From: Sipunculus nudus
Taxonomy: Eukaryota; Annelida; Sipuncula; Golfingiida; Sipunculidae
DNA length: 64,000 nucleotides
Reading direction: 5' to 3'
Assembly (NCBI GenBank): GCA_026874595.1
Contig: CM049317.1
Coordinates: forward strand, 48,198,401-48,262,400
Shown: positions 359 to 58,183 of the stretch, piece after piece
Layout of the letters: each line of letters begins with the position of its first letter
Numbering within the stretch: the stretch's first letter is position 1
The notes under the pieces: model-generated
The model's input: the letters and a program-made list of their open reading frames with translations, nothing else
What the model was told of the DNA's origin: nothing
Databases searched by the model: none
Position numbers and translations under genes: made by a program

Positions 359-1925
359 GTAAACACATTCAGATAAATAACCGCTATGATTTTACCCCTT
401 TCATTCCTTAACTGTATCCAAACTGTTTCAGAATCCGGTTTGTTGCTTTCGCACGGCAGATAAACCAAAGTAAAGCTACGAGGCCTAAGCCCGTGTGTCA
501 GGTCATGCTTCCAAATCAAAAACGTTATGTCAAAAACAGACCACGTGATTGACGTCACTTAAGTGTATTTGACGTTTTAAAAGGGGTTACATAAAACGTC
601 AAAGGGGTTACTTTCGATTTGGCCAAAAGGGGTTCAATTTGCGTTTTATTATCTTGTGAAAGCCAAATGCGGACAAAAAAACGTGTCGAAACCTTTATGC
701 ATTTGCCGTGTGAAAGGGGTGTTAGTCTAATCATGTAAAGTTTATTGTATACATAAAACCAACAATACCCGTTGATGATAGCAGCTAAGCTGTTGACCCT
801 CAGATTGGAGTGAATGCCTCATATCGGTCATGATGTTTGAGAAAAATCCCAAGGTTCCACTGTGTGATGCTTTTTAACCTCAAGTTATTTTTTACTTATC
901 ATAAAACCGGTCACTTATGTTATTAACACTGTAATAAAAATACGATCCTGTTGTAATCTTTTTGCTCGCAAGATTTTTAACTTCGAGATATTCGGGAAAG
1001 GGAACTTATCTTTAAATTAAAACCGTCAATGAGAGACCCAGTCGTCTACAATTCGAAAGGTAAACTAGTGATGTTATAAATAATTTTAAATTTTTTAAGT
1101 ATAATAAAATCAAAGATTAATTCTTTGTACAATGGACCCCCGTTCTAGTTGATACGTTTTTGCGAAATTATCACTTTATATGATTCATTTGTATGAAAAC
1201 AGATATACTCCGTGAGGGTTATTTTAGGCTATGGTAAAGAAAGAACCCTCGCGAAACAAAGAAAAAGAGCAAAACGCGAATATACTAATACCACCGGTTA
1301 TTGGTGCGTAATGTTGTTTTACGACCATGTGTTCATTTGTTTTACGGTTCCTATGTGACTAGTGAAACTGACAAGGGGTTTGATACACGTTCTCATTCTT
1401 GTATTAATATAATTTATATGAGAATTATATAAAACTACAAGAAATAAAAAGCATGGTATAGATATTTCGTTAAATGATACCCCCATCTACCTCAGTTAAA
1501 TGGAAACTGACATAGTTGAGTGACAGAACACTGGAATTTACTGATATCAATTATTTTATTTTTCAAAATTGAGCAAATCAGGGTTCTACAAGGAGAGTGT
1601 GTGTATGTGTGTGTGTTGGGGGGGGGGGGGTGGTAGGGATTAGAAATGCCAAATACTCAGAATGTAAAATGTCTGGGACGGTCATTAGTTCAACAATGGT
1701 ATTATTTATTTTGCCAACACAGTGTGCAATATGCTGTCTTAATTCATAACTGTTCAGTTCTACTTTGAAAATTCCTAACATATATTCATTTAGCATATAT
1801 AGTCTACAACTTTGCATAATATGTATCTAATTAAACAGTCTTAAGTAAGGGAGCTTTAAGAATAAGTTCTTTTTTACTGAAAGAAGACATGCTCCTCAAT
1901 TCAGTTTATCTTTCTGTACCTCCAG
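359..1925 (+). other. intron of GNAT copy A
   Basis: The intron starts GTAAACAC after GAG and ends TTTCTGTACCTCCAG before GTGACGGAAG. Both sites match those in copy B (GAG|GTAGGC and CCGAG|ATGAACGAA). It contains a GT-rich/poly-G stretch near 1599-1631 and AT-rich sequence. I see no gene in it. Confidence 0.72.
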
Positions 1926-2564
1926 GTGACGGAAGCGGAAGTTATATCCAGAGCAAAAACTGCAGTTATCCCCCCGCCATATTTTCGAAAAGATGTTGAT
2001 ATCCGAATTGAATCCACGATAGTTGAAGAAGGAGAAAGAACCATGATCATACGTCCTTCAAGAGAAAACGAAATTCGTTCATTGTTCAACATGCTAACAA
2101 CAGCAGCTATGAAAGGAGATGGGTTTGGTGTAGATGAATTCCCAACTTATGAACTTTTCTGCAAGAAATTCCTTCTTGGGAGAAAACTCCATGTTATTGA
2201 GATACCGCACAGCTCTGAAGTCCTCGGTGTCGCCGTCGTGGGACCTTCTCATTTTATCCGAGGGGAACCGGATGTTGCTATGATGTATATTTACATACTT
2301 CCTGGATACCGTTGTCAAGGTCACGGATCAAAAGTAGAGGACGTTATCTCTGATCATCTATGGGAGCTCGGCTATACTGGCGTGGTGACGGACATGCTTT
2401 GGACCAGAAGGAACGCGTATCACGTGGCCAGGAAAAAGGGATATTCAAGCTTAGGTCATATACCGTTCAGTGCATATGTGACGGGAGATGGATGGACAGA
2501 TGCAGTAGTTCTACGGAAAATATTTCTCTCGATACCTCAAGAAAATGTGAAAGCAAAGCTCTAA
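1926..2564 (+). CDS. GNAT-family N-acetyltransferase copy A, exon 2 (catalytic domain)
   Basis: This exon encodes 212 residues ending in TAA at 2562-2564. The first codon GTG is internal, not a start: an acceptor AG precedes it and the frame joins exon 1. The acetyl-CoA loop is visible as GYRCQGHGS (the Q/R-x-x-G-x-G/A motif A of GNAT enzymes), preceded by the beta strand VAMMYIYILP and followed by helix SKVEDVISDHL. Downstream WTRRNAYHVARKKGYSSLG fits motif B (N-A-x-x-x-x-x-K-G-Y), the usual acceptor/CoA-side helix. The expected reaction is acetyl transfer from acetyl-CoA to an amine; the substrate is unknown. No signal peptide or membrane segment is seen in the part available. The duplicate at 10.1-10.55 kb is about 80 percent identical by eye, so the family is locally amplified. 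Confidence 0.85.
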   Translation: MTEAEVISRAKTAVIPPPYFRKDVDIRIESTIVEEGERTMIIRPSRENEIRSLFNMLTTAAMKGDGFGVDEFPTYELFCKKFLLGRKLHVIEIPHSSEVLGVAVVGPSHFIRGEPDVAMMYIYILPGYRCQGHGSKVEDVISDHLWELGYTGVVTDMLWTRRNAYHVARKKGYSSLGHIPFSAYVTGDGWTDAVVLRKIFLSIPQENVKAKL

Positions 2565-2749: not shown

Positions 2750-2998
2750 ACAATTTGGTTTTAATTGTAGCTTTTGTTTCGCAACCTAATATAAACAGAT
2801 CACGTATGCGTGATGAACACAAGTTTTGTAATGGAGATAAAAAAATCAGATTCTGTGACACTAGATAGCGTGAAATGTCTAGGGGAATGAATAAAGAAGT
2901 CAGTGCTTTTTTGTTAATAAATAACTATAATTTATTCCTAAAACAACCCTAACATTACAATTCACTAAATCAATACAATTATACAGTTAAACAGCGGT
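2750..2998. repeat. dispersed repeat, copy 1
   Basis: This stretch is clearly homologous and co-linear with 61655-61915. Shared blocks include ACAGATCACGTA, GGAGATAAAAAAATCAGATT, GTCTAGGGGAATGAAT and ACATTACAAT. In both places a LINE fragment follows directly. The nature of the repeat is unknown; it could be a SINE or MITE, or the edge of a larger element. I see no protein in it. Confidence 0.6.
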
Positions 2999-5365
2999 AT
3001 AAGAACAATACATGGTGGTAAAGCGGTCATTTTCCATCTAGTAAACTTATATAATATGTGTATTACAACAGGATTTGTCCCTCACTCCATGAAGGTAGGG
3101 TTGGTTGAACCCATCTTAAAAATCATTTAAAGAGTCATTCTTTACCTGGTAATTATAGAGGTATAACGCTCCTACCCTGTGTGTATAAATTGCTGGAAAA
3201 GTTACTTCTTAGACGTATCTCAATTTTTACTGTGTTTAAGGGAATTCGGTTCCCAGACCCAATGCAGTTTGCTTACTCGAAAGGGACCGGTGCACTAAAT
3301 GCTTCTTTCGGCTTAAAGGAGACTATATCCTTTAACACTGAACGACAGTCCAAGGTTTATGTGTGTATGCTGGACAGTTCCAAAGCATTTGATGTTGTGT
3401 GGCACACAGGCCTTTTTGTTAAACTGTACCATTTTGGTATATGTGGGTTAATATGGCGCCTTTTACTTAATGCGTACACAGAAATGAAAAGTGCTGTTAT
3501 GTTTTTGAACAGAACAAGTCCTCTTTTTAATGTTAGACAGTCCGTACGTCAAGGGGGTGTTCTCTCGCCTTGGCACTATTTGTTATTTATAAATAACCTT
3601 CTAATTGAACTTCGTCAGTCCCAACAAGGAGCACTTGTAGATGGCATTTACGTGGGTTCACCCACTCAAGCGGATGACATATGTCTTGTGTCCTTGCCAG
3701 GAGGTTTGCAAACTATGATTAACTTTTGCTCTAATTATTCCTGTAGGTGGAGATTTAATTTTAACTCTGATAAATCTGCTGTCATCGTATTTCAATCATA
3801 CGCGACGCGTTTGGCCCCTTGGGCTAATGTTATAAAACAGGTACGTTCTCATAAACACTTGGGTATTACATTAGAAGCTAAACTTTCTTCGAAAGAATGT
3901 GTTATGGATGCCTGTAGGAAAGGTAAAGGTTCTCTGATCTCACTGATTGGGACTGGGGTACGGCCATCTGGCCTCAATCCTCTTACTAGTTTAAAGTTAT
4001 ATAAAACGGTAGTGCTTCCGAGAGCCCCGTACGGATGTGAACTTTGGTGTTAACTTACTGTTGCCCAAGCGAATTCACTTGAGCGGATGCATCGCTTTTG
4101 CCTTTAAGTAATGCAGGATCTTCATAAGAGAACCCCTACTAACATAGCTCTAAGCTTGTTAGGTGCACCATGCTTATCTGCGTTTTTGGAAAGATTGAAG
4201 TTTCTTTATTTCGGACGGTTGTGTAGAACTCGACAAGCAATGGTTCCTGTTCGTATTCTTAAATATAGAATATTTTATGCGCTATCACGCAAGTAGTGTG
4301 GCAGAGTTTGTTTCGCTAGTTTTTAAATATGGGCTTGATTCTACATTAATACAATTTCTTTGTAAAGGCGTTTTTCCGTCAAAAGGGCAATGGGACGAAC
4401 TTGTTACAAGTAAAATAGTAATAAACGAAGAAAACTTGTTCTTTAACAGTTTAATGGATTCTCCAGTATGTAAGCGCTTTAGTATTGTAAAAGAGGACTA
4501 TTTCACACCATCACTGTTATGGCAATATGCAGGACAGATTCCAGGAACTCTTGGCGTGTTCTCTTTCTTGATCAAATTACTTGCCCACTGTGGTATGTTT
4601 GATGATAATGACTCATCTTATCTGTGTCACTATTGTGGTAATTTGTATACCAATCCAATTTTTCATGCCACATTACTGTGTTGTGTTACAAAGTCAGAGA
4701 GAGATAACTTGTTGGATTATCTTACTGATATGTTCCCTGTACAGAATAGTGTTTTTCTGTTTAGTTTAGAAGAAGAACAGTTGTTTAATATATTGTTAGG
4801 CCTACCACCTGGTCTGTTAGATTTCAAAGATCATAAAAACCTGATTCACAGATCGGCAGTATTTTTTAAGAACATTAAGCGTATTATTTTTGATCTGTGG
4901 CCTAAGGATTTCCTTTGGGCTTCCGGCCACCTAAAGTAAAAAAAAATGTTGTCTGTGGTTTTTTGTATTGTTTAATTGGTTATTAACGATCTGGATTTGT
5001 TTCTTTTTTGATTCTGTACTATAATCATAAATATATCTTGTATGTCAAAACCCATTTAGTACGGAACATTGTTATAAAAAAATAGTCTCTGCTTATCATA
5101 TATATCCTACGGTGTTCTCTGTCCCATTTAATTCAATAATTATTTAATATTCAGACCCATAGATCTGTATTGTATCTTAACCTATCACTTCTAACTGTAT
5201 ACTGTACAAATTTTGATTGTTCATGTATACCCTGTTTATATTTTTACAGGATATATATCCCATATTTCTGTTTACATGTATTTTGTTTATTCATATATTA
5301 CTTTTTTACAAATACTGATTGTAATCTTCAGCTTCTGGAGGAAATAAAGAATATCGATTTTAAGT
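2996..5365 (+). mobile_element. 5'-truncated non-LTR retrotransposon (LINE)
   Basis: Starts within a reverse transcriptase domain and runs through a C-terminal tail to a 3' UTR ending near an AATAAA at about 5343. There is no endonuclease or ORF1 upstream, so it is a typical dead-on-arrival 5' truncation. It separates the two GNAT copies. The exact ends are uncertain; I saw no target duplication. Confidence 0.75.
3009..4939 (+). pseudogene. reverse transcriptase and C-terminal region of a LINE, broken
   Basis: The conserved RT order is visible: GNYRGITLL (about 3150), MLDSSKAFDVVW (about 3370), SVRQGGVLSPWHY (about 3540), then ADDICL in place of the usual YADD catalytic box (QADD here, about 3670), and HKHLGITLE (about 3850). 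The C-terminal part (4277-4939) has a CxxC-type finger, CHYCGNLYTNPIFH. Breaks seen: a one-base loss near 3122 (ILKN/HLKSH), in-frame stops at about 4051 (after ELWC) and about 4106 (after RFCL), and a frameshift near 4285. It cannot make a working enzyme. The clade is not assigned; I1/jockey/CR1-like is possible. Confidence 0.8.
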
Positions 5366-8332: not shown

Positions 8333-8464
8333 ATGAACGAATCGGAAGTCATTTCAAGAGGTAGTTCAGGATGGAGAAAAAACAATTATAATACGACCGT
8401 CCAGAGATGGCGAGATTCATTCGGTGTTCAGCATGCTTACGACAACAGCCATGAACGGAGATGG
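8333..8464 (+). pseudogene. GNAT copy B, exon 2, part 1
   Basis: Begins ATG AAC GAA TCG GAA GTC, aligned with VTEAEVISR of copy A. About 65 bases (the segment with PPPYFRKD in copy A) are missing after ESEVISR, which shifts the frame. It then resumes as DGEKTIIIRPSRDGEIHS and MLTTTAMNGD. It is cut at the codon pair GAT GG by the foldback element that starts at 8465. Confidence 0.75.
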
Positions 8465-8466
8465 TG

Positions 8467-8675
8467 TTACGACCCATAATGTAATAACTGGCCCATAATG
8501 TAATAACGGCCCATATTGTAATAAAAACGACCCATAATGTAATAATAGCCCATAATGTAATAAAAAACGGCCCATATTGTAATAACTATATACCCTGCCC
8601 ATATTGTAATAAAATCGCAAGTGGTTAAAACGGCCCATATTGTAATAAAATCGAAGGTGGGTAAAACGGCCAATA
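8467..8675 (-). repeat. left subterminal array, CCCATAATGTAATAA units
   Basis: Eight units of CCCATAATGTAATAA / CCCATATTGTAATAA joined by variable linkers of about 3-20 bases. The array is the inverse of the right-hand one. Confidence 0.85.
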
Positions 8676-8883
8676 ATTTTATAAATCAAAGTTCATGCAA
8701 ATTAACTTAGACAATTCAAACGAATGTGTAAGTGAACATACAAGTATGAAAAACCATTGAATTACATAATGACTTTTTGTTTAAAACGGTGACCAAGCTA
8801 ATATGAGCGAAATATGGCCATGATTCATGATTATTCTTTTGTTGAATCAGTGTTTAAATAGGGTGATAAAGTATTTAAACAAG

Positions 8884-8885
<2 letters not shown>

Positions 8886-8930
<45 letters not shown>
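8886..8930. repeat. (TA)n microsatellite
   Basis: Uninterrupted TA run inside the foldback element. Confidence 0.95.
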
Positions 8931-9547
8931 CGCCAAAATGTAAATATTTTTGTCATTTTTAACAGATAAAATATACAAAACTCATTATCGATACATTTTA
9001 ATGTATTTTAATTCTTTTTAAAATATAAATGAAAGTTTAAATTTCAGAGCGTTTTGCTCAATGTATCATAGAGAATATTTTATATGATCTCTCGAAACCT
9101 CCCGAGATTCGGAAATTATAAATGGAGGTACTGCTGCAATTTTTTGGTGCCTATATATGTATTGGTTAAGATGTCTAAGGTTAACATGTATAACACGTCG
9201 CATAGATTAAGAGCTTTCAACGCACGTATTTGAATTTAAAACCTGGATGCGTCATTCGTGCGATTCAAGAGTTTACAATTTAATTTTTAAAAATAATTAG
9301 CCCAAACAACAAAACAACAATTTGAAAATGCCGGTTTCTGTGTTCTAGAGGTAGAGCATAGGGCGCAGAGCGGAGAGATTCAGGGGCGTAACCAGGTTTG
9401 AGGGAGGGCAGGGGGCCACGATTAGTGGCGGATCTAGAAATTCGAAAGTTGTAAGGGGGGGGGGGGGCGCTAATATGCATACATGGGTACTATAAAAACT
9501 GTTATATATATGTGTATATATATAGATATATATATATGTATATATAT

Positions 9548-9602
9548 ATTATTATTATTATTATTATTATTAAAATAATAATAATAATTATTATTATTAT
9601 TA

Positions 9603-9672
<70 letters not shown>
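9548..9672. repeat. (TTA)n microsatellite
   Basis: TTA/ATA run inside the foldback element, preceded by TATATATGTG-type sequence from about 9500 and a poly-G run at 9455-9467. Confidence 0.95.
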
Positions 9673-9833
9673 CGTTATATTTTAGTGTATGAAAATATGA
9701 TTTTTTTATTCAATTGTGAACCATGGTTTCATTTCGGTTAGTAACAGGTTCATGGAGAGGGTATGGGAGGGGGCAGGATATTATGTAAATGACACTAAGC
9801 GTGTGCCCTGTCATTCTTGAGCTTATAAACATA

Positions 9834-10111
9834 TGTTATTACAATTTAAATATGTTATTACAATATGGGTCGTTTTTCCCACTTCCCGTTTTATTACAAT
9901 ATGGGTAGGGTATGATTATTACAATATGGGTCGTTTTTATTACAATATGGGCCGTTATAACAATATGGGCCGTTTTTTATTACATTATGGGCCGTTATTA
10001 CAGTATGGGCAAGTTTTATTACAATATGGGCAGGGTATGATTATTACATTATGGGTCGTTTTTATTACAATATGGGCCGTTATTACATTATGGGCCGGTT
10101 ATTACATGGGT
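9834..10111 (+). repeat. right subterminal array, TTATTACAATATGGG units
   Basis: About twelve units of ATTACAATATGGG or ATTACATTATGGG with linkers TCG, CCG or AGGGTATG. The linker AGGGTATG (CATACCCT reversed) also occurs in the left array as TATACCCTG, so the arms share more than the core unit. Confidence 0.85.
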
Positions 10112-10118
10112 TGTAACA

Positions 10119-10553
10119 GATGGTTTCGGAGTAGATAAATTCCCGACTTATGAACTTTTCTGCACGAAATTCCTTCTAGGCAGAAAACTCCATATTATGG
10201 AGAGACCGCACAGCTCAGAAATTGTCGGTGTCGCCGTCGCGGGACCTTCCCATTTTATCCGAGGGGAACCGGATGTTGCTATGATGTATATTTACATACT
10301 TCCTGGATACCGTTGTCAAGGTGACGGATCAAAAGTAGAGGACGTTACCTCTGAGCATCTGTGGGACCTCGGCTATACCGGCATGAAAACCGACATACTT
10401 TGGACCAGGAGGAACGCCTATAACGCAGTAAGGAGGAGGGGATATTCAGTTCTTGGTCACATACCGTTCAGCGCATATGTGACTGGAGTGGAATGGGCGG
10501 ACGCTGTAGTTCTTCGGAAAACGTTTCACGCGAATCCTGTAGAAAAAAATTAA
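10119..10553 (+). pseudogene. GNAT copy B, exon 2, part 2 (catalytic core)
   Basis: Open from GATGGTTTCGG to the TAA at 10551-10553. It encodes DGFGVDKFPTYELFCTKF, GRKLHIMERPH, the CoA loop GYRCQGDGS, and WTRRNAYNAVRRRGYS. About 80 percent identical to copy A by eye; one change falls in the CoA loop (QGHGS to QGDGS). ATG at 10197 could in principle start a 118-residue peptide holding the whole CoA-binding core, but the upstream exons are broken and separated from it, so expression is unlikely. The good conservation of this half suggests that the insertion and frameshifts are recent, or that there was gene conversion with copy A. Confidence 0.75.
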
Positions 10554-11359: not shown

Positions 11360-12770
11360 CTCATTAAGTCACCTGACGTACAGAGTTTATATAACAACTT
11401 GTCATCTGACGTACAGATTATACAGCAGCTTGACGTACAGATTATACAACAGCTTTATCACCTGACATACAGATTATACAACAGCTGAATCATCCGACGT
11501 AAAGATTATATAACAGCGTGTCCATCTGACGTAAAGATTATAAAATAGCTTTTCATCTGACGTCCAGATTATACAAAAGCTTGATCACCCGACGTACAGA
11601 TTATGTAGCAGCTTGTCCATCTAACATACAGAATATGTAACAGCTTGAACAGCCGACGTGCAGGTTATATAACAGCTTGTCCATATAACGTACAGAATAT
11701 ATAACAACTTTTCACCTCATGTACAGCTTTTATAACAGCTTTTCATGTGACGTACAGATTATGTAAAAGCTTTTCATCGACGTACAGATTATACAAGAGC
11801 TTGAACACCCTACGTGGAGATTATACAACAACTGGTCATCTGACGTACATAATATGTAACAGCTTGCCATCTGACGTACAGATTATATAACAACTTGTCA
11901 TCTGACCTACGGATTATACAAGAGTTGAACACCCTACGTGGGGATTATACAACAACTGGTCATCTGACGTACATAATATATAACAGCTTGCCATCTGACG
12001 TACAGATTATATAACAACTAGTCATCTGACGTACAGATTATGTAACAGCTTGTCATCTGACGTACAGATTATACAAGAGCTTGAACACCCGACGTACAGA
12101 TTATACAACAACTGGTCATCTGACGTACATAATATGTAACAGCTTGCCATCTGACGCACAGATTATACAACAGCTCGTCCTCTGACGTACTGCTTATACC
12201 ACAAATTCATCACCTAACGTACAGATTATATAACAGCGTGTCGAACTAACGTACAGAAAATGTAACAGCCTGTCATCAGACGTACAGATTATATAACAGC
12301 TTGAACACCTGAAGAAACAGATTATATAACAGCTTGCCCATGTAATGTACAGATTATATAACAACTTGTCATCTTATGTACATATTATATAACAGCTTGT
12401 TCATCTTACGCACAGAATATATAACAACTTGTCAACTGACGTACGGATTATATAACGCCTTGATCATCTGAGGAAGAGATTATACAACAGCTTGTCCATC
12501 TGACGTTCAGATTAAATAAAAGCTTGTCCGTCTGACGTTCAGATTATATAAATAGCCTGTCTACCTCACGTTCCGTTTAATGTTACAGCTTGTCATCTGA
12601 CGTTCGGTTTAATGTAACAGATTCTCATCTGGAGTACGGTTTAATGTGACAGCTTGCCATCTGAAGTACGGTTTAATGTAACAGCGTGTCCAGCATGCAT
12701 AAAATTAATGTTACAGCTTATCATCTGATGTATAGACTGATGTTACTGGCGAAATGATTTATGTCTCAAA
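11360..12770. repeat. minisatellite A, about 31-bp unit, roughly 45 copies
   Basis: Tandem units built from TCATCTGACGTACAG + ATTATATAACAGCTTG, with point changes and occasional length changes; the 3' third shifts to a variant (ACGGTTTAATGTAACAGC). Most units carry TGACGTAC, a CRE/ATF-like half site. No spacers are interposed and the units are not conserved enough for CRISPR; this is a tandem minisatellite. Confidence 0.9.
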
Positions 12771-18834: not shown

Positions 18835-21667
18835 TCACAGATCGGTGTGAGCTACTTCAGACCCTTGCGTGTAAGTATGGGTCGTGACTGTAGATTGCTT
18901 ATGAAATGTTTGCCCACCGAAAACTGGTTGACTATAAAACTGTTTTTGCGTTGTTTGAGTTTGTTGTCTGAACCCAGTGGGTGGCGATGACACCTTGTCG
19001 TCTGCCTTTGTGTAAACCCCGATGGCTTCCAAAGCGCGTGCGCGTGACTGTTGCCATGGTTTCGGTTTAACAAGAGCCCGCACACCTTCATCATCATCAT
19101 ACTCCATATCCTCGTGTTTGCTCGAAACGGTGATCTCACCAACTATGTTGCGAGGCCGAGGCACCGTGCCGAAATTTGCTGGCCGGGAAGCCGCGGGTTT
19201 TGTGGGGTCGAAAACTCCAATTTCCGCGCGATCTCGAGCCTTCGTCGGGTCAAATATTCCAGCACGAGCGCTGGTGGGAACGGTGTAGGATTGCTCAAAA
19301 ACACGTGTCTGAGGAGGACCCCCGCCTCCCTGCGTTGTCTCTAGGCGTCTTTGTCTAATTAACAATAAGCCTTCATTACCACCAGGTTGGCCGTACGTTG
19401 TATGAGTGGTGTATTGACCCGTTTGCATTCCGTAGGGCCCTCCGATTGGCGGGCCAGAGTGGACCGGGTAGTTGCCCGTTTGGGATTCATAACTTTGTCC
19501 AAACGAAGGCATACCTCCAAGTAACCTCTGGAGAGCTCTGAAATCTTCTGTCAGCTCCTTCGCTTGGATCCTAGCCGAGTAAACTAGTGCCTCGCCCCCA
19601 GGGGCGATCTTGCGTTCACCTGCCATTTCGTCCACTATCTGCGTGACTTCTGCAGGCTTGGCCTCGGCCTTCGCTTCTTGCTCAGCCTGTGCTACTTCCT
19701 GAGCGGTCGACAGCGCGCCCATTCCAGAATAGTGAAAGAGATTATCGTAAAAGGTTTCTGGAACTGGCTTGTACTCATACACGGGCAGCGAACTCTCGGT
19801 GTAGGTTTTACACATTATAACCTCAGCTTGTTGTTTCGCCAGTTTGTCATTGTCCGCTGCCACTTTTTCCTCAAGCTCGCGCATGCTTTTGAATATGGTG
19901 CTGACTTCCTGGTCAGCTTGTTTCTCTGACTGATCAACATCCACCGTGGCAGTGATGGTTAAACCTGCCGCTGTTTGCTCTCCTTCCATCACCTCCACTT
20001 TCGTCTTTTCCTCAGTAGTAATCTCAGATTTTTCCTCAGCAGGACTGATTTCCATGGTAACTTCAGCTTCTTCTGTTTTGGCTTCATCCGTCGACACCTC
20101 TACCTCCATCTTCGTCTCTGCTTCTTCCTCAGTGACTGCCACATCAGCAGATATCTCCTCAGACGTTGCGACGGTTACCTCGGCGACTGCTTCCTCCTCT
20201 TTAGCCTCCTCTTTAGCCTCCTCTTGGGTATCCATGCTTACCTCGGCTGATATTTCTTCCTGCTTTTCGACTTCCGTTTCGACAACTGCTTCCTCTTTCT
20301 GTGTGACCTCCTCAGACATTGAAACCTCAAAACTAGCTTCCCCTGTCTCCTCTTTCTGATCTTCTTTTGCCTCCTCTGATGTGCTTATATCTACAGAGAA
20401 AGCTATCTGACCTTCAGTCTCTTGAACATCTGCCGACACCTCAGCACTTTCTTCTGTGACCTCAGTGACCTCTGCCTCAGCCTTTTGTTCCGTAACCTCA
20501 CTGACCTCTGACGTGACCTGCTGAGAGTCCGTTTCATCCACCGTACCAGCCATGGTGACCTCACTTTCTGCTTCAACGGTCACTTCCTCGGCTGGTTTAG
20601 CTTCTTCGGACACTTCTGTGTCTACCGTCATCTGGATTTCCGGTGCAGGCTCCTCCTTTGCTTCAGCACTCTCTTCTGTTGAAACATCGGCGGTAAACGT
20701 AAATCCAGAGGACGTCTCTCCCTCCGTTGTTTCGGTAGTTGTTTCTACAACAGTCTCCTGCTCGGACTTGACTTCACCACTCTCAGCAGCTGATGTTTCT
20801 GTTACATCAGTGTCAACGGCCACAGTCATTGCTGTTTCACCGGCTGTTTCTTCTTGCTTCTCTTCAGCTTGTTCCTCTGTTGAGATGTCGGCCGAAAACG
20901 TGAAACCACCCGAAGTTTCTCCTTCGATTGATTCTGTGGTTTCCATTTTCTTTACCTCACTTTCTTCCTGGACATCCACTTTTACAGAAATTTCTGATTC
21001 CTCCTCTATTTTAGCCTTCTTTGCTTCTTCTTCGTCCTCTTCGGTACCTTCCGCCTTTTCTGCCTCTTCTGATGCTTTCTTGCGGAGCTTTCTTGCTTCC
21101 CGTCTCTTCACCAACATTTCTTTCTCTAAATGCTGAGCTGCGGCCACATTAGCCTCTAGCTCAGCATCAAGGTCGAGCTCCTCCTCCCCGTGTACTTCCT
21201 TTTCCACCACCACTTCTTCTGACTTGGCTTCGACACTTTCTGCCGCTGCCGCTTCTTCTGCTGCAGCACTTTCGACCTGCGTCTCGGTGACAGTCTCCTG
21301 AGATGTGATGCTGACAGCCGCCTCTTTGTCTGCTTCTGGTTCTTCGCTTGTCGTTTTAACTGTTGTTTCTTCTACGACAGTCACAGATGATGCACCCTCG
21401 CCGGTTGTTTTCTTGGTTTTTTTAGTAGTTTTAGTTTTCTTGGTCTTCACAGTCTTGCCTGATTTCGTTGATGACTCCGTTACTGTTTCTGTAACCTCCT
21501 CTTTCCCCTCGGATTTCTTAGATGTCTCTTCTTTGGCCCCCTCTTCATCTTTTTTACCAAACTTGGACTCGACCTTTCCAATTCGTTTACTTGAGCTGGA
21601 ACTGGTAGTTTTAGAGGATTTGGAAGATTTTCCCCCTTCAAACATAGCCATGCGGTCCTTAGCGGAC
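18835..21667 (-). CDS. Glu/Val/Thr-rich repeat protein, 3'-terminal exon
   Basis: One uninterrupted minus-strand exon of about 943 codons. It starts right after TTTTCTTTTTTTTTACAG (acceptor at 21668-21669), so reading further upstream is intron; the exon enters at the third base of a codon (…SAKDRMAMFEGG). ATG at 21651 is in a good context (ACCGCATGG) and could be a start if upstream exons are noncoding. Layout, numbered from SAKDRM: a Ser/Lys/Thr-rich basic segment (about 10-90); a very acidic region (about 90-600) with repeats GGFTFSADISTEE, SGFTFTADVSTEE and QIAFSVDISTSEE; a possible short helix (MRELEEKVAADNDKL); then a Pro/Gly/Gln/Tyr-rich tail with GIFDPTKARDRAEIGVFDPT and a last block EGVRALVKPKPWQQ…EAIGVYTKADD, ending SEVAHTDL. 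No signal peptide in the exon. I do not recognise the family; a cytoskeletal or sarcomeric role is a guess from composition only. Homology to neurofilament-like proteins would be compositional. Confidence 0.85.
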
Positions 21668-21744
21668 CTGTAAAAAAAAAGAAAATAAAAAATATGTAAT
21701 ACAACATTGCCCATTATACAGACAGTGGTAAGAATGATGGATTC

Positions 21745-21850
21745 CACAATAATGATAATAATAAGAAAAAAAAATAATAATTGTATTATTATTATTATTG
21801 TTATTATTATAATATTATTAAAATTTTATTAATTTATTATTAAAATATTA

Positions 21851-45849: not shown

Positions 45850-46810
45850 TCTTATAACGCCTGTGTGACCAAGTTTCACATCATATAACCCTTCACGTAA
45901 TGTTATATCTCATGACGCATTATGGATCGAATAGTACCCTTTCGAACGCGTGACTTATCAAATGGTACATGTCATATCATCTGATTTAATACAGATATAA
46001 CGCCTGACTAGTCAAATGCGACATTTCATAACGGCTGATGGTTCAAATATAAATTCCATAGCGCCTGATCTATCAAATGCTATATCCCATAACGTCTGTG
46101 TTATCAAGTATTACCGTACATAATGCCCGAGTAATCATTTGCTACATGCCATAATGCCTGAGTTATCAAATGTTACCTTCAAAAACTCCTCACTGAGCAA
46201 AGTTCATACCAATGACTGATTTAAATACAAATGACTGTATTCCAAATCTTGCAACGACTGGCTGACTAAGATAGTACATTCCATAATGCCTGATTGAAAT
46301 GTGACGCGTCACACCTGACCGACCATATCTCATTAAACCTATTTCATCGAATGCTTAATCCTGTAAGGTCTAACTGACAAAAATATGACCGTCACGCCTG
46401 ACTGAAGAATGCAATATCTGAAAATTTCCCAAAATAAAAAAAAAATTACACAAGGACTGAGTGACAAAATTTTACATCCACCAGGGTCATGCGGAAAAAA
46501 TGTTCCGTCGCATGACAGACAAAATGTTACCGCTCGTTACGTCTGACTGACCACATCTTACCTCTCACAACGCCTAACTGACCACATGTTATCGCTCGTA
46601 ACGCATGAATGACCTCGTGTTATCTCTCATAACGACTGAATGACCACAGTTACCTCTCAAAAGGACACATCTTGCAGCTCATAATGTCTGATTGACCACA
46701 TGTTACCGCTCATAACATCTGACTGACCTCGTGTTACCGCTCGTAACGTCTGACTGACCTCATGTTTCTTTTCTGCTCACAACGTCTGACTGACCGCATG
46801 GTTCACGTTC
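45850..46810. repeat. minisatellite B, about 31-bp unit
   Basis: Tandem units of the type CTCATAACGTCTGACTGACC + ACATGTTACCG, strongly diverged at the left and near-regular at 46540-46800. Unit length is similar to minisatellite A, but the sequence is unrelated by eye. Confidence 0.8.
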
Positions 46811-57300: not shown

Positions 57301-58183
57301 TCTATGTCACTTTCCTGCAAAACATGCTCTATATAATGGCGATTGTTACTATTTCTCATCCGAGTTTGGCTTTGACCTTGACCTTATTGCTCGATAGGAA
57401 CCTTTTATGACCTTTTATAGTTTTAACAAATGAATGGGCATTCTCATCATCTTAAAGTCAAGTGGTAAAGACACGATAACACGTTAGAAAAAAGTACCAT
57501 ACCATTACGAGTGTTGCTTTTCTCTTCCAAATTTTACTTTGACCGTATACTTGATGGATGCTATATGTACTTTCAGACCTCAGAAGTGTCACCAATACAT
57601 GGGCATTCTTAAGTAAGTTAGAAATGACAATTTTAATACATTTCTATGCCACTTTTTGAAAAAAACATGTTATATCATGGCGATTGTTGCTTTTTCTCTT
57701 GGAAGTATATGACATTGACCTTGACCTTTATGCATTTAATGTACCTTTTATGACCTCAGAGGTAAAAAAAAATGAATGGAAAGCCTAATGTCAAATGGAA
57801 ATATTACTTGAGATAGGTTTTCATAACATTTGGTTAAAAAAAATGCCATATCATGCCGATTTTGGCTTTTTTCCTGCAAAATTTGACATTGACCTTGACC
57901 TAATACCGGAAGTGTACCATTTATGACCTCAGAAGTGTCACCAAATGAACGGGCATCCTAATGTTAAATGGAAATGACACCTTAAATGTGGTTCTGTGTC
58001 AGTTAGTTATGGAATTATGGCCACTTAAATGTTTCACCCCTTATAATGGCGGCCATCTTGGATTTGGAGTGAAAATGACACTTTGCCATGGGTGGAATCA
58101 GGTGGGGTTTTATTTGTGCACTAAGACCCCATCAGTGAATCTATTTCAGGTGAGGAACCTTTGATAACATTTTTGTCCAACCT
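54395..58183. mobile_element. 3.79-kb element with about 355-bp inverted terminal repeats
   Basis: Left 54395-54748 (AGGTTGGACAAAAATGTTAT…) and right 57829-58183 (…ATAACATTTTTGTCCAACCT) are inverted copies. Shared blocks include AATCCAAGATGGCCGCC, TTATGGAATTATGGCCACTT and GTGTACCATTTATGACCTCA. It interrupts unit 1 of the tandem duplication and is absent from unit 2, so it arrived after the duplication. No transposase is recognised in the middle (54750-56600), which has only short open frames. No clear target duplication. Confidence 0.8.
56640..57890 (+). repeat. degenerate tandem repeat of about 170-200 bp inside the element
   Basis: About seven units, each with CAAAAACATGCCATATCATG, a TTTTCTCC-type block, TGACCTTGACC, a TGCATGATA or equivalent, and ACCTCAGAACTATCACC…AATGA. 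The last unit grades into the right terminal repeat, so the terminal repeat itself is one more unit. Confidence 0.8.

Follow-up and report, generated by a model that had tools for sequence, protein, structure and literature searches.

The interrupted exon and its empty site

The window (the whole 64-kb stretch of DNA that was analysed) carries a tandem pair of acetyltransferase-like exons separated by about 6 kb (1881-2564 and 8362-10553), one intact and the other split by an inserted element. A reverse-transcriptase frame (3109-4053; Pfam RVT_1) lies between these exons, and about 40 copies of a unit with a 32-bp period (consensus TGACGTACAGATTATATAACAGCTTGTCATC) occupy positions 11431-12690, directly downstream of the interrupted gene. 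The paralogue, the two parts of the interrupted exon and the target duplication are located as follows.

1881..2564, + strand: intact tandem paralogue, an open frame with a match to Pfam Acetyltransf_1 (aligned part 2020-2545)
8362..8464, + strand: interrupted acetyltransferase-like exon, 5' part that can be aligned to the paralogue
8460..8464, + strand: target duplication GATGG (5 bp), left copy
10119..10123, + strand: target duplication GATGG (5 bp), right copy
10124..10546, + strand: interrupted acetyltransferase-like exon, 3' part that can be aligned to the paralogue

The first-pass annotation of this DNA had proposed that a foldback element flanked by GATGG is caught inside a GNAT (acetyltransferase) exon, and that its removal rebuilds the reading frame; all three points were borne out. 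GATGG is present at both edges of the element. When the element and one GATGG are removed and the flanks joined, the rebuilt empty site is an open frame containing LTTTAMNGDGFGVDKFPTY, which matches the exon of the intact paralogue used for comparison (2020-2545) at 83.65% over 526 bp with zero gaps. On the 3' side the open frame runs on past 10546 to 10553. The frame bearing the paralogue (1881..2564) matches Pfam Acetyltransf_1 with 22.4 bits against a cut-off of 20.7, and the assignment to an acetyltransferase gene family is therefore supported. Taken alone, the 3' piece of the split exon matched no Pfam family at 0.001. Insertion of the element has split one of two neighbouring acetyltransferase-like genes. 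The locus offers a clean and recent case in which foldback anatomy and LTR-like ends are combined with an exact empty-site comparison within a gene.

Anatomy of the element

The boundaries of the element and its parts were defined with the help of an alignment of 40 copies.

8465..10118, + strand: foldback-like element of 1,654 bp, almost certainly non-autonomous (40-copy alignment; the window copy differs by 1.32% from the majority sequence)
8465..8684, + strand: left arm, terminal TGTTACGACC followed by 9 units of CCCATAWTGTAATAA
8685..9854, no strand assigned: interior with no evident coding capacity, containing TA and TTA microsatellites
9855..10118, - strand: right arm, the left-arm unit inverted, with 11 units and one damaged outermost unit; terminus GTAACA

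The inverted termini TGTTAC...GTAACA noted in the first-pass annotation are found at the 8465 and 10118 edges. In the left arm of the window copy the units start at +8, 27, 45, 66, 84, 106, 133, 169 and 205 from the element end, the ninth being degenerate. The motif GGCCCATATTGTAATAA, allowing up to 3 mismatches, has 19 matches in the 64-kb window, every one of which lies inside the arms: 8 on the + strand in the left arm and 11 on the - strand in the right arm. A hundred shuffles gave a mean of 0.40 matches and a maximum of 3, which rules out a chance origin of the arms. A looser motif scan of the window copy recovers 9 left and 11 right units plus the damaged outermost right one. The arms are complementary over stretches such as 68 nt at 99% and 78 nt at 90%.

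This is foldback anatomy: long inverted arms built of tandem units with a conserved 15-bp motif. The arms had previously been described as minisatellites of oppositely oriented units (8 versus about 12), variable in number as is the hallmark of foldback elements. The inverted orientation holds, with 9 and 11 units in this copy, and so do the inverted arms of tandem units; the idea of a free minisatellite with a variable number of units does not, for both number and spacing are nearly fixed across the family. Nine left and 13 right units occur in 24 of the 40 copies, the range being 8-10 on the left and 11-14 on the right. Most of the 40 copies have their first units at 8, 27, 45 and 66 from either end, followed on the left by units at about 84, 106, 131, 167 and 203, and on the right by units at about 91, 112, 130, 152, 170, 191, 216, 252 and 271. 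Among 56 copies of several subfamilies the unit columns show 1.2% mismatch to the consensus in each arm, while the spacer columns show about three times as much (3.7% left, 3.5% right); these are raw rates, the spacers include columns diagnostic of subfamilies, and the right-arm spacer figure takes in columns where the alignment is frayed along its inner edge. Judged from the sequences, ordered binding sites account better for this pattern than does an unstable minisatellite. Gene conversion or homogenisation between units could be an alternative cause of the low variation in unit columns, or a contributor to it. Since the arrays are nearly fixed and vary less than their spacers, the notion that foldback arms are ordered transposase-binding arrays becomes directly testable.

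The family in the genome

A search of the genome (1.43 Gb, 153 contigs) for other copies revealed a young family with many members. With the full element as query there were 1,790 candidates, and the 40 that were scored are places, the window copy included, with 88-100% identity. The 40 aligned copies each differ by 1.06-2.23% from the majority sequence, and their median pairwise identity is 0.967. The exact 23-bp terminus occurs 225+225 times in the genome (450 in total), and its reversed control 0+0 times. These termini comprise 126 of A-type, 182 of CCGG-type, 92 of CTGG-type and 50 others; positions were compiled for the first 100 of the 182 CCGG-type and the first 100 of the 126 A-type ends. 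In the region from C1 to C12:45.4 Mb, 63 of the 69 CTGG-type ends compared face a convergent A-type end 1.09-1.97 kb away (median 1.62 kb).

The flanks of the 40 copies show no mutual match at E 1e-5, and two copies (L045 and L046; 1,554 and 1,556 long) are identical at all aligned bases while their duplications differ; the copies are therefore recent independent insertions. In all, 62 end pairs were checked, a non-random sample made up of the 40 best matches to the window copy and 22 chosen by the presence of two exact termini and by size. End pairs of 1.09 to 7.5 kb have arms in common and different interiors. L074, one of the unpaired ends, has its other end about 0.6 kb away with a matching AAGGC duplication and so belongs to a short copy. 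The 7.5-kb pair, L093, is covered throughout by known family interiors and is probably a nest of family members.

Two same-strand copies 11 kb apart (L099-L102, C8:6160243-6173081) have, as read at their ends, flanks matching at 100/100 and 99/100 bases and the duplication GCTGC in common; this arrangement is a recent segmental duplication and not an LTR pair. Three further loci on C2 (L089, L090 and L091, at 77.15, 78.09 and 79.18 Mb), with ends about 1 Mb apart and the same five flanking bases GCATC in all, are possibly another segmental duplication.

Target duplication and target site

Among the 40 copies the 5-bp duplication is exact in 38, has one mismatch in L010 and is absent from L040. 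An exact 5-bp duplication was found in 57 of the 62 end pairs, across several size classes, the exceptions being L010, L040, L048, L049 and L097. In L040 the ends are intact and the flanking 5-mers unrelated (GGGGA/GCATC), as expected from recombination between copies or a later change of the flank. The left end reads TGTTA or TGTAA in all 40 copies and the right end TGTTA in 39, L017 deviating. The duplication length seen at the window copy thus extends to the family, as does the description of its ends as LTR-like (TGT...ACA with a 5-bp duplication).

Duplications of Mutator elements are mostly 8-11 bp, so that the 5 bp recorded here fall outside their usual range. A Mutator-type foldback (like FB4, Phantom or Tm1) would account for long inverted arms of tandem units, and most foldbacks seem to be Mutator elements according to the part of PMC4079207 compared. 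The same source gives duplications of 8-10 bp for Tetris, against 5 bp in 57 of 62 pairs, and in the part of PMC10045372 compared the whole IS256/MuDR group spans 4-10 bp; the TGT ends, too, speak against this assignment, which we regard as highly improbable.

The target preference was derived from 52 sites (38 from standard copies and 14 from the 22 pairs of other sizes). With positions counted from the duplication, it reads as the weak palindrome A(-2) n R(0) [G C n G C] Y(6) n T(8), and the sites are 65% GC. The symmetry score is 0.635; when the flanks of the copies themselves were resampled 2,000 times as background, the highest score was 0.10. The preference three bases outside the cut resembles that of retroviral integrases, though it is not exclusively theirs; TG...CA ends, and likewise symmetric targets, occur beyond integrase-type enzymes.

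Because TGT...ACA ends, a 5-bp stagger and a symmetric target in the retroviral style occur together, an enzyme of the integrase type is the most likely agent of movement. The same ends, duplication and target would suit an element that borrows its integrase from an LTR retrotransposon of the same genome, linear copies with LTR-mimicking ends being integrated by Gypsy, Copia or BEL, and Gypsy-type elements bearing an integrase do occur here. Such a mechanism leaves unexplained both the origin of linear DNA copies without LTRs and the conserved motif arrays of the two arms, and the apparent LTR start of the Gypsy element examined (TGTGGTGAAAACC) differs from the element ends after TGT. We consider it improbable.

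Search for an autonomous partner

The first-pass annotation had proposed a search for an autonomous partner with a transposase or integrase. None was found in the 40-copy majority sequence, 22 further end pairs, a 21.9-kb copy and 20 unpaired ends. The majority sequence, which together with the window copy represents the standard 40 copies in the frame scan, contains no transposase-sized frame, its longest stop-to-stop stretch being 110 aa. The 22 further pairs, 1.1-7.5 kb long, likewise hold no transposase-sized frame, and their frames of at least 110 aa peak at 152 aa in L096; on this count the longer of these end pairs were rejected as autonomous copies. An autonomous copy may lie among the remaining termini, which include 14 or more listed pairs of 2.1-3.7 kb. 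The 152-aa frame is part of a 2.35-kb stretch (L096:289-2642) that interrupts the left arm of a family member; Pfam gave no hit for it at 0.001 (best E 0.044), and no solved structure matched better than E 0.9. Of about 28 unpaired ends on C1-C4, 20 were read (the first 1.2 kb of each) and gave a longest frame of 129 aa; 12 are fully covered by known interiors, and eight (L073, L074, L077, L081, L082, L083, L086 and L088) have uncovered stretches. A transposase with an H2C2 zinc finger and a DDE core lacking GPY/F was not found in the sequences read. L095 contains a 2.4-kb stretch (2910-5330) within a family member, to which no known interior matched and which has no frame of at least 110 aa.

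The 21.9-kb copy (C4:32987143-33009091) has the family ends and an exact GGCCC duplication. Its frames specify gag, protease, reverse transcriptase, RNase H and integrase, the last adjoining the right terminus and having a GPY-like tail (read from the frame) and a match to Pfam MLVIN_C. With its GGCCC duplication and integrase frame it was at first a strong candidate for the autonomous partner, and was rejected on the interruption of the arm and the recurrence of the integrase elsewhere. The right arm of the member stops at position 1540 of the majority sequence on the left of the insert and restarts at 1540 on the right. At the left junction, GGGCAGG|TGTGGTGAAAACC, the insert has an LTR-like start with a TG of its own; the right junction, CGACAAC|GGTATG, shows no CA end, and GG alone is common to both sides. 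Three other places match the integrase segment at 97-98%, the match starting at query base 217 and thus excluding the family terminus, and a 135-bp segment is present on both sides of each place, about 10.6 to 15.6 kb apart. Since the insert has its own TG start, the arm breaks at 1540 and the integrase recurs without the family terminus, the 21.9-kb copy (L066-L068) is best read, from its sequence, as a rearranged Gypsy element nested in the arm of a 2.35-kb member. A simple nested insertion is counted against by the right junction without CA, the GG alone in common and the stretch L066 94-1074, which had no match among the family interiors compared. The insert also carries a 3.2-kb internal inverted duplication (99.3%) with frames in both orientations, which self-integration or recombination could explain.

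These data also bear on whether the element is a solo LTR or another derivative of an LTR retrotransposon, as its TG...CA ends and 5-bp duplication, and one 21.9-kb copy with family ends and exact GGCCC enclosing gag-pol, might suggest. The ends are long inverted arrays; the copies own separate duplications, and the same-strand pair 11 kb apart is a segmental duplication; the Gypsy element opens at 1540 with a TG of its own, and the matches to its integrase segment elsewhere exclude the family terminus. In the copies read, gag-pol was not seen enclosed by direct terminal repeats within a single outer duplication, the ends being convergent and most checked copies having their own duplications. 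Nor were long direct LTRs with gag-pol encountered among the other copies read, 63 of the 69 CTGG-type ends being paired convergently. With gag-pol occurring only as a nested copy, a solo LTR was rejected on the sequences read, and we hold such an origin to be exceedingly improbable.

Classification and comparison with known systems

The element is almost certainly a non-autonomous DNA transposon with terminal inverted repeats (TIRs). It is moderately probable that the enzyme which moves it is an integrase-type one like those of retroviruses, belonging to the Ginger2/TDD group or close to it, and we consider the chance somewhat better than even that the whole reading is correct: a copy of a young, high-copy family moved in trans by such an enzyme. 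The arm arrays would then provide multiple binding sites for the transposase supplied in trans, which would pair both ends and make staggered strand transfers 5 bp apart.

Several features of the Ginger group recommend this placement. In the part of PMC2836005 compared, TGTNR ends are given for Ginger1, Ginger2 and most Gypsy LTRs and so resemble the termini here; TDD-4 and TDD-5 have 5-bp duplications and TIRs of 260-297 bp, a combination of 5-bp duplication and long TIRs like that of our family; and short high-copy derivatives are known, such as the 252-bp family Ginger2-1N1_NV. In the compared part of PMC10045372, Ginger2 duplications measure 4 or 5 bp and those of LTR elements 3-6 bp; the compared part of PMC10294476, a mollusc survey, reports 98 Ginger elements. 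By contrast, the duplications of metazoan Ginger2 are 4 bp long and fall at AT-rich RTATAY sites (PMC2836005, same part), unlike the 5-bp, GC-rich symmetric sites found here, and TIRs composed of ordered motif arrays are not mentioned for Ginger2/TDD in that part of the paper. A further difference is that no transposase was found in the sequences of the family that were read. We do not assign the family to Ginger2, since it departs from the duplication rule of the metazoan members and no transposase was found.

The element might instead be a non-autonomous member of an undescribed group of DNA transposons, having a non-Ginger2 DDE transposase, 5-bp GC-rich symmetric sites and TGTTAC ends. The 5-bp, 65% GC symmetric target is unlike both metazoan Ginger2 (4 bp, RTATAY) and Ginger1 (4 bp, CCGG or CCGT) as described in the compared part of PMC2836005, and the unit strings were not found in the published texts searched. 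TDD-4 and TDD-5, as that part of the paper describes them, already join a Ginger2 transposase, 5-bp duplications and long TIRs, so that no new group is needed, and we regard this alternative as rather unlikely. We attach a similarly low likelihood to the suggestion that the family defines a separate cut-and-paste group, bordering DNA transposons and the integrases of LTR retrotransposons and distinguished by long, ordered, asymmetric arrays of about 9 and about 13 sites, an undescribed integrase-like transposase, strict 5-bp transfer and GC-rich symmetric targets.

Sea urchin TU elements have inverted arms with an outer domain of tandem units of about 15 bp, like the arms described here, and 8-bp duplications, unlike the 5 bp of our family. 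Duplications of Galileo and other Foldback-type elements are 7-8 bp, and their ends differ from those of our element. Galileo and its Foldback-type relatives (P superfamily, Drosophila) share with our element long TIRs with internal tandem repeats; according to the part of PMC3688188 compared, the repeats of Galileo contain transposase-binding (THAP) sites, whereas the binding arrays of our element are putative. Tetris of Drosophila virilis, in the compared part of PMC4079207, resembles the family in being non-autonomous, with arms of tandem units and an autonomous partner that was not found, and differs in its 220-bp units, 8-10 bp duplications and three structurally complete copies. Coral MITEs with a TTAA duplication (PMC2872659, part compared) are unlike the element. 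The anatomy is thus known in kind, and the combination of features wholly fits no single group described in the compared parts of these papers. Neither the four unit strings nor the feature combination was found in any published text searched. If the enzyme proved integrase-like, the family would bear on the relation of integrase-type DNA transposons to LTR retrotransposons.

Other sequences in the window

No known RNA family was detected in the window at gathering scores, and viral contigs gave no exact match to GGCCCATAATGTAATAA. A plasmid search yielded a single 63-base match, inside the TA-rich interior of the element. An open frame of 996 aa on the - strand (18835-21825) is highly acidic and rich in Ser/Thr, with a weak Pfam match under its cut-off. 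Further tandem arrays are located at 46524-46766 (31-bp unit, 8.2 copies) and 57660-57975 (173-bp unit, 1.8 copies).
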